64,000 bases of DNA from Flavobacteriales bacterium (GCA_015665315.1 JADFAK010000029.1:1-64000), one strand, 5' to 3'. Counted from the stretch's first letter, positions 52,476 to 63,566 are shown. A program made the numbers and translations. Notes: a model not told the origin generated them from the sequence alone.

Positions 52476-52904
52476 ATGAACAGAATTTATAGTTCTCTGA
52501 TTTTTTCCTTCCTCCTACTTACTCTGATAAGTTGCCATTCACATCTCGACAACGAGAGCATCAAAGGAACTTGGAAGGTCACCCACGTTGAAGTTATTTC
52601 TTTGACCGAAAACTTCACAGAGGAGATAACCAACAAGGCGGAAGAAAGAATGATGTCCTTCACCTACACTTTTCTGGAAGATGACAACCTCAAAACACTG
52701 GACGGAGATCGCAATATTGAAAAAGGAGGAGACTATATTCTCGACGAAAAACGCAATGTCCTCACTATCAACGAAGCATACAATGGAATCAAAATAGCTT
52801 CAGTCCTTTGGAAAATCGAAGAGAGTAGTTCCGAATCAATGACATTATACCTGGAGACTCCCAATAAATCTACAACCCGCATGACGCTTGTCAAGGTGCG
52901 ATAA
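52476..52904 (+). CDS. Lipocalin-like hypothetical lipoprotein
   Basis: 142 aa with lipobox (LLLTLISCHS). The sequence SIKGTWKVTHVEVI with a run of strands ending RMTLVKVR resembles small lipocalin-like lipoproteins in Bacteroidetes. No specific role. It is 5 bp after PAP2 and closes the operon; a terminator follows. Confidence 0.7.
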   Translation: MNRIYSSLIFSFLLLTLISCHSHLDNESIKGTWKVTHVEVISLTENFTEEITNKAEERMMSFTYTFLEDDNLKTLDGDRNIEKGGDYILDEKRNVLTINEAYNGIKIASVLWKIEESSSESMTLYLETPNKSTTRMTLVKVR

Positions 52905-53237
52905 ACGCAAATGAAAAAGGTCCCCGACGCTTCGGAGACCTTTCTTAAACCTTAACCAAAATAACTATTAACCAAAACCAATACTTGCTAGAATTGCAAG
53001 TTTAGAAGTTGCTAATCATAATGCAATTGCTGTGCCAAAGACACAAGCATCGAGGCTGATTAACACCCTTTAACTTTCACCAACACCTCTTTAAATAGTT
53101 CCTCCAAGAAGCTCGTACCTAGGTAACCTCTTCATCCTACTGCAAGCATGTTGACGCAGGACATATTTGTCCCTGACCGTCATCACCCTCAAAATCAGAC
53201 TTCCTCGTTAAATTCGATGTAGAATCAATAACGAAAA
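52905..53237. other. 333-bp gene-free region before the CBS-pair gene
   Basis: Besides the terminator it holds the palindromes TACCTAGGTA (near 53117) and GGACATATTTGTCC (53159-53172). The latter overlaps CATATTTG, a near -7 box, 68 bp before the CBS ATG. No ORF or RNA gene was recognised. Confidence 0.5.
52914..52944 (+). terminator. Terminator of the YdeI-T9SS-PAP2-lipoprotein run
   Basis: Stem AAAGGTC/GACCTTT with an inner CCGA/TCGG helix. The T run is short (TTTC). Confidence 0.65.
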
Positions 53238-57097: not shown

Positions 57098-57324
57098 CTT
57101 ATTTTGATTAATGTCCATACATCTGTATGCAAATGAGAAAGTTAGATGATTCCAATAGCCATTGTCTCAGGTTGAGTATTTTATGTTCATCGTTCTTATT
57201 TGAAACAAAATGACTAAAAAGTACATTCTACACCATTTATTGTAACTCTCTCCTTCCTGTACCCCTGATTCGTCTGCATTTAAGCCATGAATCGACCTCC
57301 TGTTTAATCTTTTTTGGCACGTCA

Positions 57325-57355
57325 ATTGCAATGCGTTGTATAAAGATTAATTTTA
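57325..57355 (+). promoter_or_regulatory. Promoter of the three-lipoprotein operon
   Basis: ATTG (-33) at 57325-57328, a 19-bp spacer and TAATTTTA (7/8 to TAnnTTTG) at 57348-57355, 73 bp before the first ATG. Confidence 0.45.
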
Positions 57356-57428: not shown

Positions 57429-58805
57429 ATGACCAGACTTTTATTCTCTCTTTCTCTTGCGTGTGTTCTTGCCCTATTCTCGTGCGGAGGCTCATCGGCC
57501 TTGACTAAAAAAGCTGTGCAGCTTGAAAACGCAGGATTAGTCACGGAGGCTGCTCAATTCTACTATGACGCGCTGACTAAAAAACGCACCAACATTGACG
57601 CGCAAATTGGATTGAAAAAGACAGGCCAAATTTTACTATCTCAGAAATTGAGTGCCTTTTCCCAAGCCGCGGCTTTTGACTCGCAAAGAGAAGCTGTTTA
57701 CAAATACTTAGAAGCAGAAGACTACCAAAAAAAAGTCGCTAAAGTGGGCGTAAACCTGGAAATACCCGCCATGTACAGGTCTGATTTCGAGGTAGCCAAA
57801 GAAAAATATTTGGGTGAATTGTACGAACAGGGGACCGAATTATTAGATCAGCAACAATTTTCGGAAGCAGAGAATGTTTTTAGCGAATTATCCCGACTTG
57901 ATCCAAGTTTTAAAGATGCCTCCAATTTGCAGAGTATTGCTTTCGTGGAGCCCAAATACAAAGCGGGAAAAAAAGCAATGGCCAATGGTCACTACAGAAC
58001 GGCCATGAATCGATTCACTGAAGTTCAAAAAAAGATGCCTCATTATAAGGACACGGATGAAGAACTTAAAAATGCTCTTGCGCTGGGGCAATATAGTCTT
58101 GCCTTACTCCGATTCGAAAATGCCTCCGATAAAATAGGTTTGTCGGCCTTGGCAGAAGCTTATGTGCTTGAGGCTCTTTCGGACATCAACGATCCTTTTC
58201 TTCGCATAGTAGATCGAGACAATTTGCAAGTTATAATGGATGAACAGACCCTGGGTATGACGGGGGTTATTGACGAAGAAACAGCTGTGAATGCCGGAGA
58301 GATAATTGGGGCTCAAGCAATTGTCACAGGGACAGTTTTATCGTATTCATCTTCGCTTGGAAGGGTTGTTACCAAGAAAAAGAAAGGATTCGAACATTCT
58401 CAAGTAAAACAGTACTCCAAGGCCGATGAAACCCCTAAGTATGTTGACAGGTACAAAGAGGTCGAATATGTTGAGACAAGCGCTACAAACAAAGCAAGTT
58501 TTTCATTTCAATTCAAAGTCATTTCGCTTAAAACGGGAGAAGTCCTACTCACGAATCTCATCAACAAAGAGCTGAGTGACCAAATGGCCTATGTGAATTA
58601 TGAAGGCGAGCTAAAGTCCCTCTACCCTGCTGGCTCCAATGGTGCAGTGAACACAAAAAGATCAAGCCAAATGGCACTTCATCAACTGGCTAATGCTCCG
58701 CGTGAGTGCAAAACTCCTGAGCAATTGACAAATGAAATAATCCTGGCTTCCTCTTTGGAAATGAAATCGGCGATAAGCAAGTTACTCAAGCAGGAAGTTA
58801 AATGA
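57429..58805 (+). CDS. CsgG-like lipoprotein with TPR-like N-terminal region
   Basis: 458 aa. Lipobox (VLALFSCGG). Residues about 25-220 are helical with repeat-like segments (AQFYYDALTKK, ALGQYSLALLRFENA). From about 235 comes a CsgG-like fold: LRIVDRDNLQVIMDEQTLGM, AVNAGEIIGAQAIVTGTVLSY. CsgG forms the curli secretion pore; related proteins (LpoB, FlgT) are envelope accessory lipoproteins. It overlaps the next gene start (ATGA). Confidence 0.8.
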   Translation: MTRLLFSLSLACVLALFSCGGSSALTKKAVQLENAGLVTEAAQFYYDALTKKRTNIDAQIGLKKTGQILLSQKLSAFSQAAAFDSQREAVYKYLEAEDYQKKVAKVGVNLEIPAMYRSDFEVAKEKYLGELYEQGTELLDQQQFSEAENVFSELSRLDPSFKDASNLQSIAFVEPKYKAGKKAMANGHYRTAMNRFTEVQKKMPHYKDTDEELKNALALGQYSLALLRFENASDKIGLSALAEAYVLEALSDINDPFLRIVDRDNLQVIMDEQTLGMTGVIDEETAVNAGEIIGAQAIVTGTVLSYSSSLGRVVTKKKKGFEHSQVKQYSKADETPKYVDRYKEVEYVETSATNKASFSFQFKVISLKTGEVLLTNLINKELSDQMAYVNYEGELKSLYPAGSNGAVNTKRSSQMALHQLANAPRECKTPEQLTNEIILASSLEMKSAISKLLKQEVK

Positions 58806-60187
58806 TGGTTCGCACGCTGACATATATATTCCTTGTAATTCTAGTTTGCGGATGTGGCAATAAAAAGGGCACCCAAGAAACGGTTGAGCAACCTGATGTA
58901 CAACCCCATTGGATGACTGATCGGCCTATTCAAAGCGGTTATTACATCGGAGTAGGCAGCGCTTCAAAAAATGAGCATCCTCTTGATTTTTCACAAGTTG
59001 CCAAAGAAAATGCCCTCTTAGATTTGGCGTCTGAGATTCGGGTGACCATTTCTGGCGAGTCGTTTCTAAGCACCCTTGAGGTGAACGATTATTTTCAGGA
59101 AGAATTCATCTCCAAAATTTCCACCTCAACAAAAGAATATCTGGAGGGTTATGATCTTGTGGACACCTGGGAGGACAATCAACAATACTGGACTTTTTAT
59201 CGACTGTCTGTCGCCGAATACAACCGAATTCGAGCAGAGCGCAAGCAAAGTGCGATGAAACGATCGGCCGACAACTTAAGGCGAGCAAAGAGTTTTGAAC
59301 TGGAAGGGGATGTACGCGGAGCGATTTCAAACTACTTAGATGGTTTGGTTGGGATTCATGAATATTGGACAGAAAGCAATGAGTTTGACCTAAACGGACA
59401 GACGATTTTCTTGGATCATGAATTACATCATGGTTTCAAAGACCTGCTGCGAGATATTCAAATTGAACCTAATCCAACAGAGATTGTACTGAACCAAATG
59501 AATCGTTACAGAGAAGATGTAAAAGTCTTGGTTCACTTGCGTGGCAACCCAGTGCGGGATTTCCCTTTGAAATATCGTGTAACATTTGATGGCGGATACA
59601 ATCGATTTCTCGCCATTCGCACCAACGACAATGGAATAGCCACAATTCGTATTGAAAATGTGTCCCTAGAAGGAGGAAGTACAACCAGACTAGAAATAGA
59701 ATCGGGCATGGATAAGATGGATTTTGAGGGGATAGAAATGCAGGTGCGAAAACCATTGATGGATGAAATCGGCTTTAGTTCTCGTCAGCTTCCCTTGCGC
59801 ATCATTTTGCCATCGATGTCGATCGAAAGCCAGGAATTAAATTTAGGCACTACACTAAGTAGCCCCTTGCTTTCGGCAACCTTGCGCTCTGAATTAGCGT
59901 CACTCGGAATTCGGTTCGTTGCCTCCTCGGCACAGGCCGACTATGTTGTGAAGGTGCATGCCGACTCACGAGAATCAGGCACCTCGCAGGGATTTCACGT
60001 GGCTCACTTGGACGCGCGTGTCGAAGTGCTAGACAGGATAACGGGCGAGCTGGTTTATTCATGGCAAGAAAACAGCATCAAAGGACTGCAGCTCAATTTT
60101 GAATCTGCCGGAAAAGAAGCGTATAAAAAAGCGGCAAAAAAAATGGAACAAATAGTTGGAACAGAAATCATAGACGCTATTCTTTAG
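58802..60187 (+). CDS. LPP20-like lipoprotein, large form
   Basis: 461 aa. Lipobox (LVILVCGCGN). Residues about 35-145 look like LPP20 (YYIGVGSASKNEH, AKENALLDLASEIRVTISGES). The middle is beta-rich and the C-terminal ~110 residues form another alpha/beta unit (LASLGIRFVASSAQADYVVKV, ITGELVYSW). Translationally coupled to the CsgG-like gene. No known enzymatic motif. Confidence 0.75.
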   Translation: MMVRTLTYIFLVILVCGCGNKKGTQETVEQPDVQPHWMTDRPIQSGYYIGVGSASKNEHPLDFSQVAKENALLDLASEIRVTISGESFLSTLEVNDYFQEEFISKISTSTKEYLEGYDLVDTWEDNQQYWTFYRLSVAEYNRIRAERKQSAMKRSADNLRRAKSFELEGDVRGAISNYLDGLVGIHEYWTESNEFDLNGQTIFLDHELHHGFKDLLRDIQIEPNPTEIVLNQMNRYREDVKVLVHLRGNPVRDFPLKYRVTFDGGYNRFLAIRTNDNGIATIRIENVSLEGGSTTRLEIESGMDKMDFEGIEMQVRKPLMDEIGFSSRQLPLRIILPSMSIESQELNLGTTLSSPLLSATLRSELASLGIRFVASSAQADYVVKVHADSRESGTSQGFHVAHLDARVEVLDRITGELVYSWQENSIKGLQLNFESAGKEAYKKAAKKMEQIVGTEIIDAIL

Positions 60188-60246
60188 CTCTGGCATAGTT
60201 TGTGCATCCAACGAGAATCAACATAAAAACGTCTAATTCAACTGAT

Positions 60247-60831
60247 ATGAAAAACATTACCACTTTTAGAAATCTAGCCCTTATTGGTTTGGCTTTGCTT
60301 ACAATAACTGCCATTGGGTGTAAGAAGAAAAAGCAGATCGTAGAGGAAAAGCCGAAAGGAGAAGTATTGATCAATGAGTATTGTTCATCTGAAAACTTCT
60401 TTTCTGACAAAAAGACTTTTCGCGCAACAGCTACTGGAGAAAGCATGGATCGAGAAACGGCCAAGAAAAAGGCTCGTTCTAATGCCAATGCTGAGTTGGC
60501 AAAAACAATCCGTACAACCATGCAGATTGTGGGAGACAACTATGTTAATTCAACTGAATTCAACAACAAAGAAGAAGTTACTGAGACTTTCAACGAGATG
60601 GCCAGAACCATCATCGACGAAACGTTGACTGGGGCGATAAAAATTTGCGACAAGCTTACCCAGAAGCCTGACGGAAATTACGTCTCGTATATAGCCATTG
60701 AATTATCCGGCGAGGACTTGGTAGCCGAATACCATGAAAGTTTAAGTAAAAATGAACGCATCATGGCCGAATACAATTATGAAAAGTTCAAGGAGACTTT
60801 TGAAGCTGAAATGGAAAAAATGGGCAACTAA
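60247..60831 (+). CDS. LPP20-like lipoprotein, small form
   Basis: 194 aa with lipobox (LLTITAIGCKKKK). The mature protein is LPP20-like (FRATATGESMDRETAKKKARSNANAELAK, NEMARTIIDETLTGA) and similar in arrangement to the N-terminal part of the previous protein. Start set at ATG 60247, not the ORF-track start. It follows the larger gene by 59 bp and ends in a terminator. Confidence 0.78.
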   Translation: MKNITTFRNLALIGLALLTITAIGCKKKKQIVEEKPKGEVLINEYCSSENFFSDKKTFRATATGESMDRETAKKKARSNANAELAKTIRTTMQIVGDNYVNSTEFNNKEEVTETFNEMARTIIDETLTGAIKICDKLTQKPDGNYVSYIAIELSGEDLVAEYHESLSKNERIMAEYNYEKFKETFEAEMEKMGN

Positions 60832-60857
60832 ACATCCCCATTTCTTAAAATAAGTAG

Positions 60858-60887
60858 AAGGTTAAGTCGGAAGGCTTAACCTTTTTT
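60858..60887 (+). terminator. Intrinsic terminator of the CsgG/LPP20 operon
   Basis: Perfect 9-bp stem AAGGTTAAG/CTTAACCTT, 8-nt loop, T run. Confidence 0.92.
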
Positions 60888-61013: not shown

Positions 61014-63566
61014 ATGTTGAATTTACTCCGCATTAACATATTGCTGGTTGGGCTTGCTATGTCAGCCGCTATGGACGCCCAAATTTATGGCGACCCTATC
61101 GTCTATTGGGATTTCGCGAATGGATTACCAAACACTTGGGTAAACGATAGCGAGTCACAAATTGGCAACTGGGAATACCGGGGGCCATCGACCTCGCCCA
61201 ACAATACAGTATGTTCGCAGGGCTCATGTGGGACTGGATCGGTCCCAATTGCTTCTCAAAGTTTAACGAACGGATTTGTGATTTTCGACTCCAATTATTG
61301 GGATGACAACGTCGGTCCGTGTGGCAGTATAGGTTCTGGCCAAGATCCAGGGCCTCATGAAGCATGGCTTATCACCAACGCGGTTAATCTGACCGGTGTG
61401 AGCACGCCTACCCTTACTTTTCAGCAACAATACAAGCATTTCCAGTCTGCCCAATACGACGTTTACACCTCCATTCTTATAAGCATCGATGGCGGAGAAA
61501 ACTTCACGGTCATTCACGAGAACCCAGGTGACTACATGGTTTCCCCTCCTGCAGAATGGGTTACGATCCCTATTGGTTCCATTGCGGCTAATCAGCCTGA
61601 CGTGCGGATCAAATTTCTATTTACGGGGTTATATTATTGGTGGTGTTTAGATGATATCGCTATCTATCAACCGAATCAGGAAGACCTCCTCATCGCGAAT
61701 GCCAAGTTTACCGAGTTCGACTACAATTTGGATCCTGCGGGATTCGGGGACATGGAATACAGTTCGTACGCATACACCATGCTGCCCGAATTCAACTTTT
61801 CGGGTCAGTGCATCAATATCGGTGCTACTGCTGCGAATGGCTCGCACTTTGAGGTTAGCGTGAATGATTCAGACGACAACGAAGTTCACTTTCAAACAAC
61901 CAATCCCTTTAATTTAGTTACTGGGGGAAGTATATTGTACGAAGCACCCAGTTCATACGTCCCCGACCTTCCGTTCGGCCATTATGAAATTGAGTTTCTC
62001 ATGGATCAAACGGAAGTAGACGATGCTTACTGGAATAACTTCGCTTACAAAGATTTCAATATCCATCCTTTTCAAATGGCACTTGATAAAGGAAACAATG
62101 GTGGTCAATTCGTCCCTCCTGTCTCGCTTCAAAACCAGACAATGGAGATTGGAAATATTTTTGTCACTTGGGAATACGGTCATCAAATAAACTCTGTCAG
62201 CTTTTCAGTCGGTGACAGTTCCGACGTGGGAACGCCAGTATATGGTGTTGTGTACAACCTTGAGCGGAGTGAGATATACGGGCAAACGGCGTCTTACGAG
62301 ATTAACGTGACGGATGTAAACGGAAGTCCGCAAGACGCATGGGTCACCTTGCCCCTTCTGGAACCTATACCTACAACTGATACGTCCTTGTTCTTGATCA
62401 TGATTGTCGACAGTTCGGATATTGGCAATTTCTATGTTAATCGCAGTGGTCAAGTTCCTGAATTTGCTTCGCAGGTTGCTTTTCCAGAATCGAATGGTTT
62501 ATACTACCTCTTGGAGGCCGCTGCAGTTCGCATGAACCTATTTCCCGCTGGAGTCATTTCGGGATGTTTAGATTCCAATGCGATGAACTTCAATGCAAAC
62601 GCTACGGCTGATGATCTTTCTTGTCTTTTCGCTGGCTGCACTGACCTAGAAGCATCTAATTATGATAGCACCGCTACTTGGGACGACGGTAGCTGTGTCA
62701 ATGCTGGATGTACCGATCCAGAGGCCGACAACTACGACCCGGATGCTGAGATTGAAGATGGAAGTTGCCAATACTTGGGCTGCACAGATGAAAATGCAAA
62801 TAACTACGATTCGACGGCCAATACAGACAACGGATCATGTACCTACAGCCAAGCGTTCATGAGTGTAAATCAAATGATAGGTTGTGTTCCTTTGACGATA
62901 ACGATCATGAACCAAACAGAATTGGGCGAAGAGTCGGAATGTACATTTGACCTAGGGGACGATACGATTATCACCACTTGCGAAACCAGTATTACCCACA
63001 CTTACACTGAACCGGGAAATTACACGATCAACTACTCGCACACCATCGGTGAGTTTCAATCTGATTTTCAGATTTCGCCAATTGAAGTTTTTGCAAACCC
63101 GGATCCTCCAATGATCTCTTTCGATTCGGGCACCAACGAACTTAGTTGTGCCTGTCCAATTGATATCAGCTATACATGGTTCTTTAACGACATTCAACTC
63201 ACGGATACATCGGCCCAGATTAATCCGAACAACAATGGCATCTATAGCCTGTTGATTGTCGACGAACATGGATGCAGTGCAACTTCAAACGACCTACCGG
63301 TTGTCATTACGCATTTGGACGAAGTTCCAAACAATATTCATGCAACAATCGTTTATCCAAACCCCGCAGAAGAGTGGTTTTTCATCGCAACTCCTCTGAT
63401 CAACCCGATGGTGACGGTCTTTGACTTGTACGGACGAGTCATTCACACCGAGCAATTATCTGGTGAATCGACCATGGTAAAGACAGACCAATGGGCCTCT
63501 GGAAGCTATATCGTGCGGATTTCGACTCAGGAAAAAACTGAATCGATACGATTGCTAGTTCATTAG
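61014..63566 (+). CDS. Large secreted protein with GCTD repeats, PKD-like domain and T9SS domain
   Basis: 850 aa. Signal peptide (LVGLAMSAAMDAQ), then an N-terminal jelly-roll-like region (about 25-220: IYWDFANGLPNTWVN-like start, FKFLFTGLYYWWCLDDI). An unassigned beta-rich middle is followed by four cysteine-bearing repeats GCTDxxAxNYDxxAxxDDGSC (about 517-610) and a PKD-like domain (about 613-700). The C-terminus (VYPNPAEEWFFIATP...GSYIVRISTQEKTESIRLLVH) is a T9SS domain. It is probably a cell-surface adhesin or structural protein; no catalytic motif. Confidence 0.82.
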   Translation: MLNLLRINILLVGLAMSAAMDAQIYGDPIVYWDFANGLPNTWVNDSESQIGNWEYRGPSTSPNNTVCSQGSCGTGSVPIASQSLTNGFVIFDSNYWDDNVGPCGSIGSGQDPGPHEAWLITNAVNLTGVSTPTLTFQQQYKHFQSAQYDVYTSILISIDGGENFTVIHENPGDYMVSPPAEWVTIPIGSIAANQPDVRIKFLFTGLYYWWCLDDIAIYQPNQEDLLIANAKFTEFDYNLDPAGFGDMEYSSYAYTMLPEFNFSGQCINIGATAANGSHFEVSVNDSDDNEVHFQTTNPFNLVTGGSILYEAPSSYVPDLPFGHYEIEFLMDQTEVDDAYWNNFAYKDFNIHPFQMALDKGNNGGQFVPPVSLQNQTMEIGNIFVTWEYGHQINSVSFSVGDSSDVGTPVYGVVYNLERSEIYGQTASYEINVTDVNGSPQDAWVTLPLLEPIPTTDTSLFLIMIVDSSDIGNFYVNRSGQVPEFASQVAFPESNGLYYLLEAAAVRMNLFPAGVISGCLDSNAMNFNANATADDLSCLFAGCTDLEASNYDSTATWDDGSCVNAGCTDPEADNYDPDAEIEDGSCQYLGCTDENANNYDSTANTDNGSCTYSQAFMSVNQMIGCVPLTITIMNQTELGEESECTFDLGDDTIITTCETSITHTYTEPGNYTINYSHTIGEFQSDFQISPIEVFANPDPPMISFDSGTNELSCACPIDISYTWFFNDIQLTDTSAQINPNNNGIYSLLIVDEHGCSATSNDLPVVITHLDEVPNNIHATIVYPNPAEEWFFIATPLINPMVTVFDLYGRVIHTEQLSGESTMVKTDQWASGSYIVRISTQEKTESIRLLVH
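62562..62840 (+). repeat. Four tandem GCTD coding repeats
   Basis: Units of about 25 residues with pattern GCTD..A.NYD..A..DDGSC. The aspartate/asparagine loops suggest calcium binding. Confidence 0.75.

Follow-up and report, generated by a model that had tools for sequence, protein, structure and literature searches.

A three-lipoprotein operon with TPR-CsgG and LPP20 domains and putative RpoN-dependent promoters in Flavobacteriales

Known systems, gene layout and conservation

Lipoproteins of the LPP20 and CsgG classes are best known from flagellar disks and from curli export. In Vibrio, the FlgO, FlgP and FlgT proteins form, or are needed for, the flagellar H ring and are sigma-54/FlrC-dependent (PMC6504787), and flgP of Campylobacter is also among the sigma-54-dependent genes (PMC4626219). 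Within the FlgP family, the ability to form rings correlates with the presence of an insert that separates the SHS2 helix from strand 2 and is a beta-hairpin in FlgP (PMC12222027). In H. pylori, the gene for HP1454 shares an operon with that for Lpp20 (HP1456), and both proteins interact with FlgP and FapH; Lpp20 is needed for no known ring, and its deletion is without motility or barrier phenotype (PMC11756786). Sigma-54 itself has been described as exerting general control over the bacterial exterior (PMC3162934).

The operon described here lies in a window of 64,000 nt, the whole stretch of DNA that was analysed, and encodes on the plus strand three lipoproteins, designated P1, P2 and P3. 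P1 (57429..58805; 458 aa) joins TPR-like repeats (residues about 24-220) to a CsgG domain (about 228-400) that is without the CsgG-type membrane hairpins. P2 (58802..60187; 461 aa) carries an LPP20 domain (35-135), helices, an Ig-like domain (about 238-301) and a C-terminal domain of the LptE/PelC/CsgG/FlgT class (about 327-460), and P3 (60247..60831; 194 aa) is a small lipoprotein with an Lpp20 (SHS2-like) fold, the best conserved among the trio. The reading frames of P1 and P2 overlap by ATGA, and the positions and order of the three frames agree with the lipoprotein operon that a first-pass annotation of this DNA had described. For P3, the ATG at 60247 is a more plausible start than the GTG at 60202 given in the ORF list, since this GTG falls within a sigma-54 element described below. 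The terminator that had been claimed after the trio was also observed: an intrinsic terminator at 60856..60885 (plus strand), with a stem of 13 pairs and a U-run, folds 3.8 s.d. better than shuffled sequences (z -3.8), the bare pattern count alone being not significant.

Like FlgO, FlgP and FlgT of Vibrio, the trio would be an outer-membrane-associated set which combines LPP20/SHS2 and CsgG-related folds with sigma-54 promoters, the latter being seen for the trio at the level of sequence. In contrast to the Vibrio proteins, however, P1 combines TPRs with a CsgG Pfam domain, P2 includes an Ig-like domain, and the domain order is different. Furthermore, the Vibrio set belongs to a flagellum, whereas we found no flagellar L-ring gene FlgH in the trio's own genome, and the FlgO and FlgT Pfam models did not match P1, P2 or P3 at E<=1 (a single P2 homologue and a single P3 homologue matched FlgT_N, at E 0.04-0.05). 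Accordingly, although the common fold class and the common sigma-54 control would suit true FlgO/FlgP/FlgT orthologues, surviving as a remnant or accessory of a flagellar motor, we consider this explanation extremely improbable, and have rejected it. The Vibrio parallel supports a way of working; membership in the H-ring system fails, in that the trio's own genome has no FlgH and the trio has no match to the family models.

P2 and P3 mirror HP1454 and HP1456 of H. pylori, since the best PDB match of the P2 sequence profile is HP1454 (E 1.8e-4), the gene of which lies in the Lpp20 operon. Each pair consists of an Lpp20 lipoprotein and a longer protein that begins with an Lpp20-like domain. Unlike the trio, the H. 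pylori pair comes from a flagellated host and HP1454 is described as secreted; the later P2 domains, moreover, are unalignable to HP1454 by sequence, and we know of no TPR-CsgG partner for HP1454 and HP1456.

Conservation of the gene order in relatives, on which the first-pass reading had been made to depend, was found in 42 loci of the order (including the window and one contig-edge case), in all of which P1, P2 and P3 follow each other intact on one strand, with a P1-P2 spacing of mostly -4 and a P2-P3 spacing of mostly 40-70 nt. Among 60 genomes of the order, a protein search gave P1-like matches in 46, and PF03783 CsgG exceeded its cut-off in 46; the 14 genomes without a CsgG match were also without LPP20, which was missing from one further, incomplete genome. 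A scan of genome contigs with the P3 alignment matched 371 loci, of which 80 were kept; a single-sequence contig scan with P2 gave no match. The named relatives are metagenome-assembled genomes (MAGs) of uncultured Flavobacteriales, marine and freshwater. Several MAGs titled Chryseobacterium gleum (L090, L091, L099, L102, L108, L118, L157) group with uncultured Flavobacteriales, and their species label is probably wrong. Outside the order, P2 and P3 occur alone in the family f19, and in another group a 206-aa CsgG-like protein precedes P2.

Genes flanking the trio vary among relatives. Directly before P1, a DUF4476 gene opens the operon in about 21 relatives (L062-L071, L041-L050 and others); it is missing in the window's genus. 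The next gene downstream (61014-63566) codes for a large secreted protein in which PKD and T9SS sorting domains are present, and members of this protein's family also stand after the trio in several relatives. This neighbour, and a lineage in which such a role is plausible, would be expected if the trio were an accessory of gliding motility or of type 9 secretion, the envelope machines of the phylum. Yet the terminator parts the trio from that gene, and most other families sampled within the order do not have the trio, which hardly occurs elsewhere in the class, so that we regard an accessory role of this kind as quite improbable.

Domains, folds and predicted orientation

P1 matched the Pfam model PF03783 CsgG at 37.2 bits (cut-off 20.8) and also matched TPR, in keeping with the earlier description of a TPR-like front part fused to a CsgG-like domain. 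By hhalign, P1 aligned weakly over CsgG 65-190 (E 0.015). A PDB profile search with P1 returned essentially TPR matches only, and the CsgG assignment therefore rests on Pfam and the weak hhalign alignment. With the CsgG curli channel P1 has this Pfam domain in common, but it adds the TPR half, and a longer, strongly charged insert (36% charged) replaces the first membrane hairpin. The best alternating hydropathic face averaged 0.31 in the first hairpin region of P1 (maximum 1.66), as against 2.64 in E. coli CsgG, and 1.29 in the second, as against 2.54. By hydropathy at both segments and charge at the first, the two hydrophobic transmembrane hairpins of CsgG are absent from P1. In addition, CsgF was found in 0 of the 60 genomes of the order, with a positive E. 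coli control.

These observations bear on the idea that P1 oligomers act as a pore in the outer membrane through which a substrate is exported, P2 and P3 being an accessory gate or guide. A genuine CsgG domain in a lipoprotein is what such an export channel would use; however, the hairpin segments are not hydrophobic, the sampled genomes are without CsgF, and the operon has no gene for a secreted repetitive substrate, and we hold the channel to be very improbable. A curli-type channel made by P1 is unlikely on the grounds that P1 is without the hydrophobic hairpins, CsgF is absent from the 60 genomes and FlgH is absent from the trio's own genome. The secretion-pore option of the first-pass annotation is thus not borne out by P1, and neither is its penicillin-binding-protein activator option, since the LpoB Pfam model did not match any of P1-P3 at E<=1; a curli channel and an activator of the LpoB type were both rejected. 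Its argument that a different structure may be built where no flagellar or curli gene is visible agrees with the lack of FlgH and CsgF just described.

Proteins related to P1 exist apart from the operon. About 16 relatives have, unaccompanied by P2 and P3, a P1 paralogue of about 27% identity (L024-L040), which mostly lies beside coaE-like and rpe-like genes; for eight of these paralogues a sigma-54-like element stands at -39 to -44. The trio's own genome contains, at unlinked loci and without clear sigma-54 sites, a second CsgG-domain protein (L192:6999-7829) and a second P3-like lipoprotein (L193:5429-5989).

P2 matched PF02169 LPP20 at 56.5 bits (cut-off 25.9), and 41 of 41 P2 homologues matched this model too. 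Its predicted monomer model (pLDDT 84) comprises the LPP20 domain, two long helices, a beta-sandwich and a C-terminal domain; in some homologues Pfam calls the beta-sandwich Big_1, DUF4198 or MG-like, and the C-terminal domain, about the last 130 residues, is modelled as two helices on a long-stranded sheet. A PDB fold search with the model gave LptE, DUF330, PelC, CsgG, FlgT (3w1e), HpaA, TraT and the LPHT ring, matches that, judged by their length and topology, would belong to the C-terminal domain. The extra C-terminal part of the second protein, which had been singled out as unusual, thus comprises an Ig-like domain followed by a domain of the CsgG/LptE/PelC/FlgT class. In this superfamily, outer-membrane lipoproteins that form rings or complexes are common, and some member lipoproteins form no ring. 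P2 has the fold of the PelC/LptE/DUF330/GNA1162 lipoproteins in about its last 130 residues, but differs from them in that the domain is fused behind LPP20 and Ig-like domains and the operon contains no Pel or other transport genes.

P3 scored 15.4 bits against PF02169 LPP20, below the Pfam cut-off, and 28 of 41 P3 homologues also matched weakly. The best PDB fold match of the P3 AlphaFold model (mean pLDDT 80), on the other hand, was Lpp20/HP1456 of H. pylori (5ok8; E 6.8e-4). With Pfam for P1 and P2 and the AlphaFold fold for P3, the folds assigned beforehand (CsgG once, LPP20 twice), which had been offered as a point of possible refutation, were recovered. Identity to the congener is 90% for P3, 53% for P1 and 48% for P2. 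The model of P3 shows a helix, like that of Lpp20, at the insert which follows the SHS2 helix and precedes strand 2, and a FlgP-type beta-hairpin is not evident in this model; in P2 an insert exists at this place (residues 82-109), with low model confidence.

For each of the three proteins, the lipobox Cys was invariant in 41 of 41 aligned homologues. An acidic signal for surface export after this Cys is known in the phylum. In the homologues of P1, P2 and P3 (41 per protein), the residues after the Cys were rarely acidic, and 37 of 41 P3 sequences had at least two basic residues there. Since this is unlike the surface-export signal, the three proteins, which are probably sorted to the outer membrane, would be expected to face the periplasm rather than the cell surface.

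Sigma-54-type promoter elements

Scans upstream of P1 for sigma-70 (TTGACA/TATAAT) promoters and for the Bacteroidetes TANNTTTG promoter gave nothing above chance. When P2-P3 gaps were aligned by eye, we observed a recurring TTTGGCAC...TGAA, the -24/-12 signature of sigma-54. The published sigma-54 consensus is YTGGCACRN4TTGCW, and elements were scored against it (maximum 16) without fitting it to the scored sequences. The putative sigma-54 (RpoN) -24/-12 promoter of P1, at 57314..57330 on the plus strand (TTGGCACGTCAATTGCA), matches this consensus perfectly, and is one of two perfect scores on both strands of the 64 kb; a second sigma-54-type element lies in the P2-P3 gap at 60190..60206 (plus strand; CTGGCATAGTTTGTGCA). 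The gap element reached at least 13 of 16 in 38 of 42 loci, as compared with 8 of 196 control upstream regions of equal size, and the operon leader site reached at least 14 in 28 of 41 loci, as compared with 3 of 196; P values for the two elements (3e-23, 1e-31) are overstated, in that the loci are related and the motif had been seen before scoring. Possibly, both elements are active promoters, and that in the gap is probably a separate promoter of P3. Where a single shared promoter had been proposed for the operon, we find instead the leader promoter together with a conserved internal element, and the comparison with FlgO, FlgP and FlgT, drawn in the first-pass annotation from folds, gains independent support from sigma-54 promoters such as those of the Vibrio genes.

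The congener (L061) has a similar sigma-54 site before P1, as in the window's genus, while in most of the operons that begin with DUF4476 the site stands before the DUF4476 gene. In family f19, which is without P1, the P2 leader carries a sigma-54 site, whereas most P2-P3 gaps have none. Of the 60 genomes of the order, 59 have RpoN, and the trio's own genome gave four strong matches to enhancer-binding proteins. Strict sigma-54 pattern searches through four whole genomes yielded 23 sites, 5 of them at the trio operon.

Several further sites were noted. The second perfect site of the window (53022-53038, minus strand; TTGGCACAGCAATTGCA) is directed leftwards, in antisense to the small lipocalin-like gene at 52476-52904; there is no obvious minus-strand gene downstream of it, and an antisense or small RNA is possible. 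Unlinked DUF4476 genes (L215 and L244 in G001, L238 in G033) are each preceded, at 42-51 nt from the start, by a strong sigma-54 site, which suggests that DUF4476 proteins are RpoN targets. In three genomes (L211, L212, L219), a strong site 39-41 nt before the start precedes an outer-membrane beta-barrel-like protein of roughly 242 aa, which is a likely conserved RpoN target. In family f19, a gene identified by eye only as rpoN-like (L179:9617-11071) is found 2.7 kb after the P2-P3 pair. Sites that fall within a uroporphyrinogen-decarboxylase-like frame (L206, L220) were set aside as apparent coincidences of coding sequence.

The range of genes preceded by such sites is relevant to the main rival of a ring or scaffold, namely that P1, P2 and P3 are lipoproteins of envelope stress or maintenance, induced by RpoN during surface remodelling, which act separately, each binding its own periplasmic or outer-membrane clients, and build no ring. 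Models for such client binding are LptE for LptD and LpoB for PBP1b. LptE is among the best fold matches of the P2 C-terminal domain and the TPRs of P1 are of the protein-binding kind, but LpoB has no match in P1. The other strong sigma-54 sites precede the beta-barrel-like protein, DUF4476, acyltransferase-like proteins and an ECF sigma factor, as might be expected if sigma-54 controls the bacterial exterior in general (PMC3162934), and deletion of hp1456 gave no ring phenotype (PMC11756786). Against separate action, the strict co-occurrence and gene order of the trio suggest that the three proteins act jointly. We regard this explanation as a realistic possibility, if a minority one.

A possible periplasm-facing ring or scaffold

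Given genomes without a sign of flagella or curli, as judged by FlgH in the trio's own genome and CsgF in the 60, and given the RpoN-type elements, the trio probably builds an envelope structure that has so far gone unrecognised. The explanation that we favour, at somewhat under an even chance, is that the three lipoproteins make up an RpoN-controlled, non-flagellar ring or scaffold at the periplasmic side of the outer membrane, which works like FlgO, FlgP and FlgT. In this model, P1, P2 and P3 would face the periplasm, with their anchors in the inner leaflet of the outer membrane. P1, with its TPRs and CsgG domain, would provide a protein-binding base of the ring type, and P2, with its LPP20, Ig-like and LptE/PelC/CsgG-class domains, a connector. 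P3, with its Lpp20 fold, would serve as a repeated building block, possibly made in excess from its own sigma-54-type promoter. The assembled trio would lie beneath the outer membrane as a ring or scaffold and would stabilise this membrane or support an envelope machine, in the manner of the FlgO/P/T ring and the FlgP disk and not for a flagellum.

In favour of this model are the conserved order and spacing of the three genes, the joint presence or absence of the CsgG and LPP20 families in the 60 genomes, the invariant lipobox Cys, the sigma-54-type elements together with RpoN, and the matches of P2 and P3 to HP1454, Lpp20, CsgG, PelC, FlgT and the LPHT ring. Several observations weaken it. 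The insert of P3 is helical as in Lpp20, and that of P2 is of low confidence, whereas FlgP has a beta-hairpin; moreover, Lpp20 is needed for no known ring, and the LptE/PelC/CsgG class includes lipoproteins that form none. The joint action of the trio is likewise made less certain by the occurrence of P2 and P3 without P1 in family f19, and of P1 paralogues without P2 and P3.

The domains of the trio are known ones; their combination, its strict conservation in Flavobacteriales and the double sigma-54 control were not found in the literature searched. No papers were found there on LPP20 with CsgG, on LPP20 with gliding or on DUF4476, and little on RpoN function in Flavobacteriales. A more far-reaching form of the ring model, which we think rather unlikely, is that non-flagellated Flavobacteriales possess an apparatus not described before, an outer-membrane ring or disk that is switched by RpoN and consists of TPR-CsgG and LPP20 lipoproteins, often together with DUF4476. 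If such an apparatus does exist, the parts of the flagellar H ring and basal disk would belong to an older, motor-independent envelope module under the same sigma factor. The trio offers a testable case for the roles of LPP20- and CsgG-class lipoproteins before or besides flagella, and RpoN, which is present in essentially every genome of the order, gains in this operon a concrete predicted target in Flavobacteriales.
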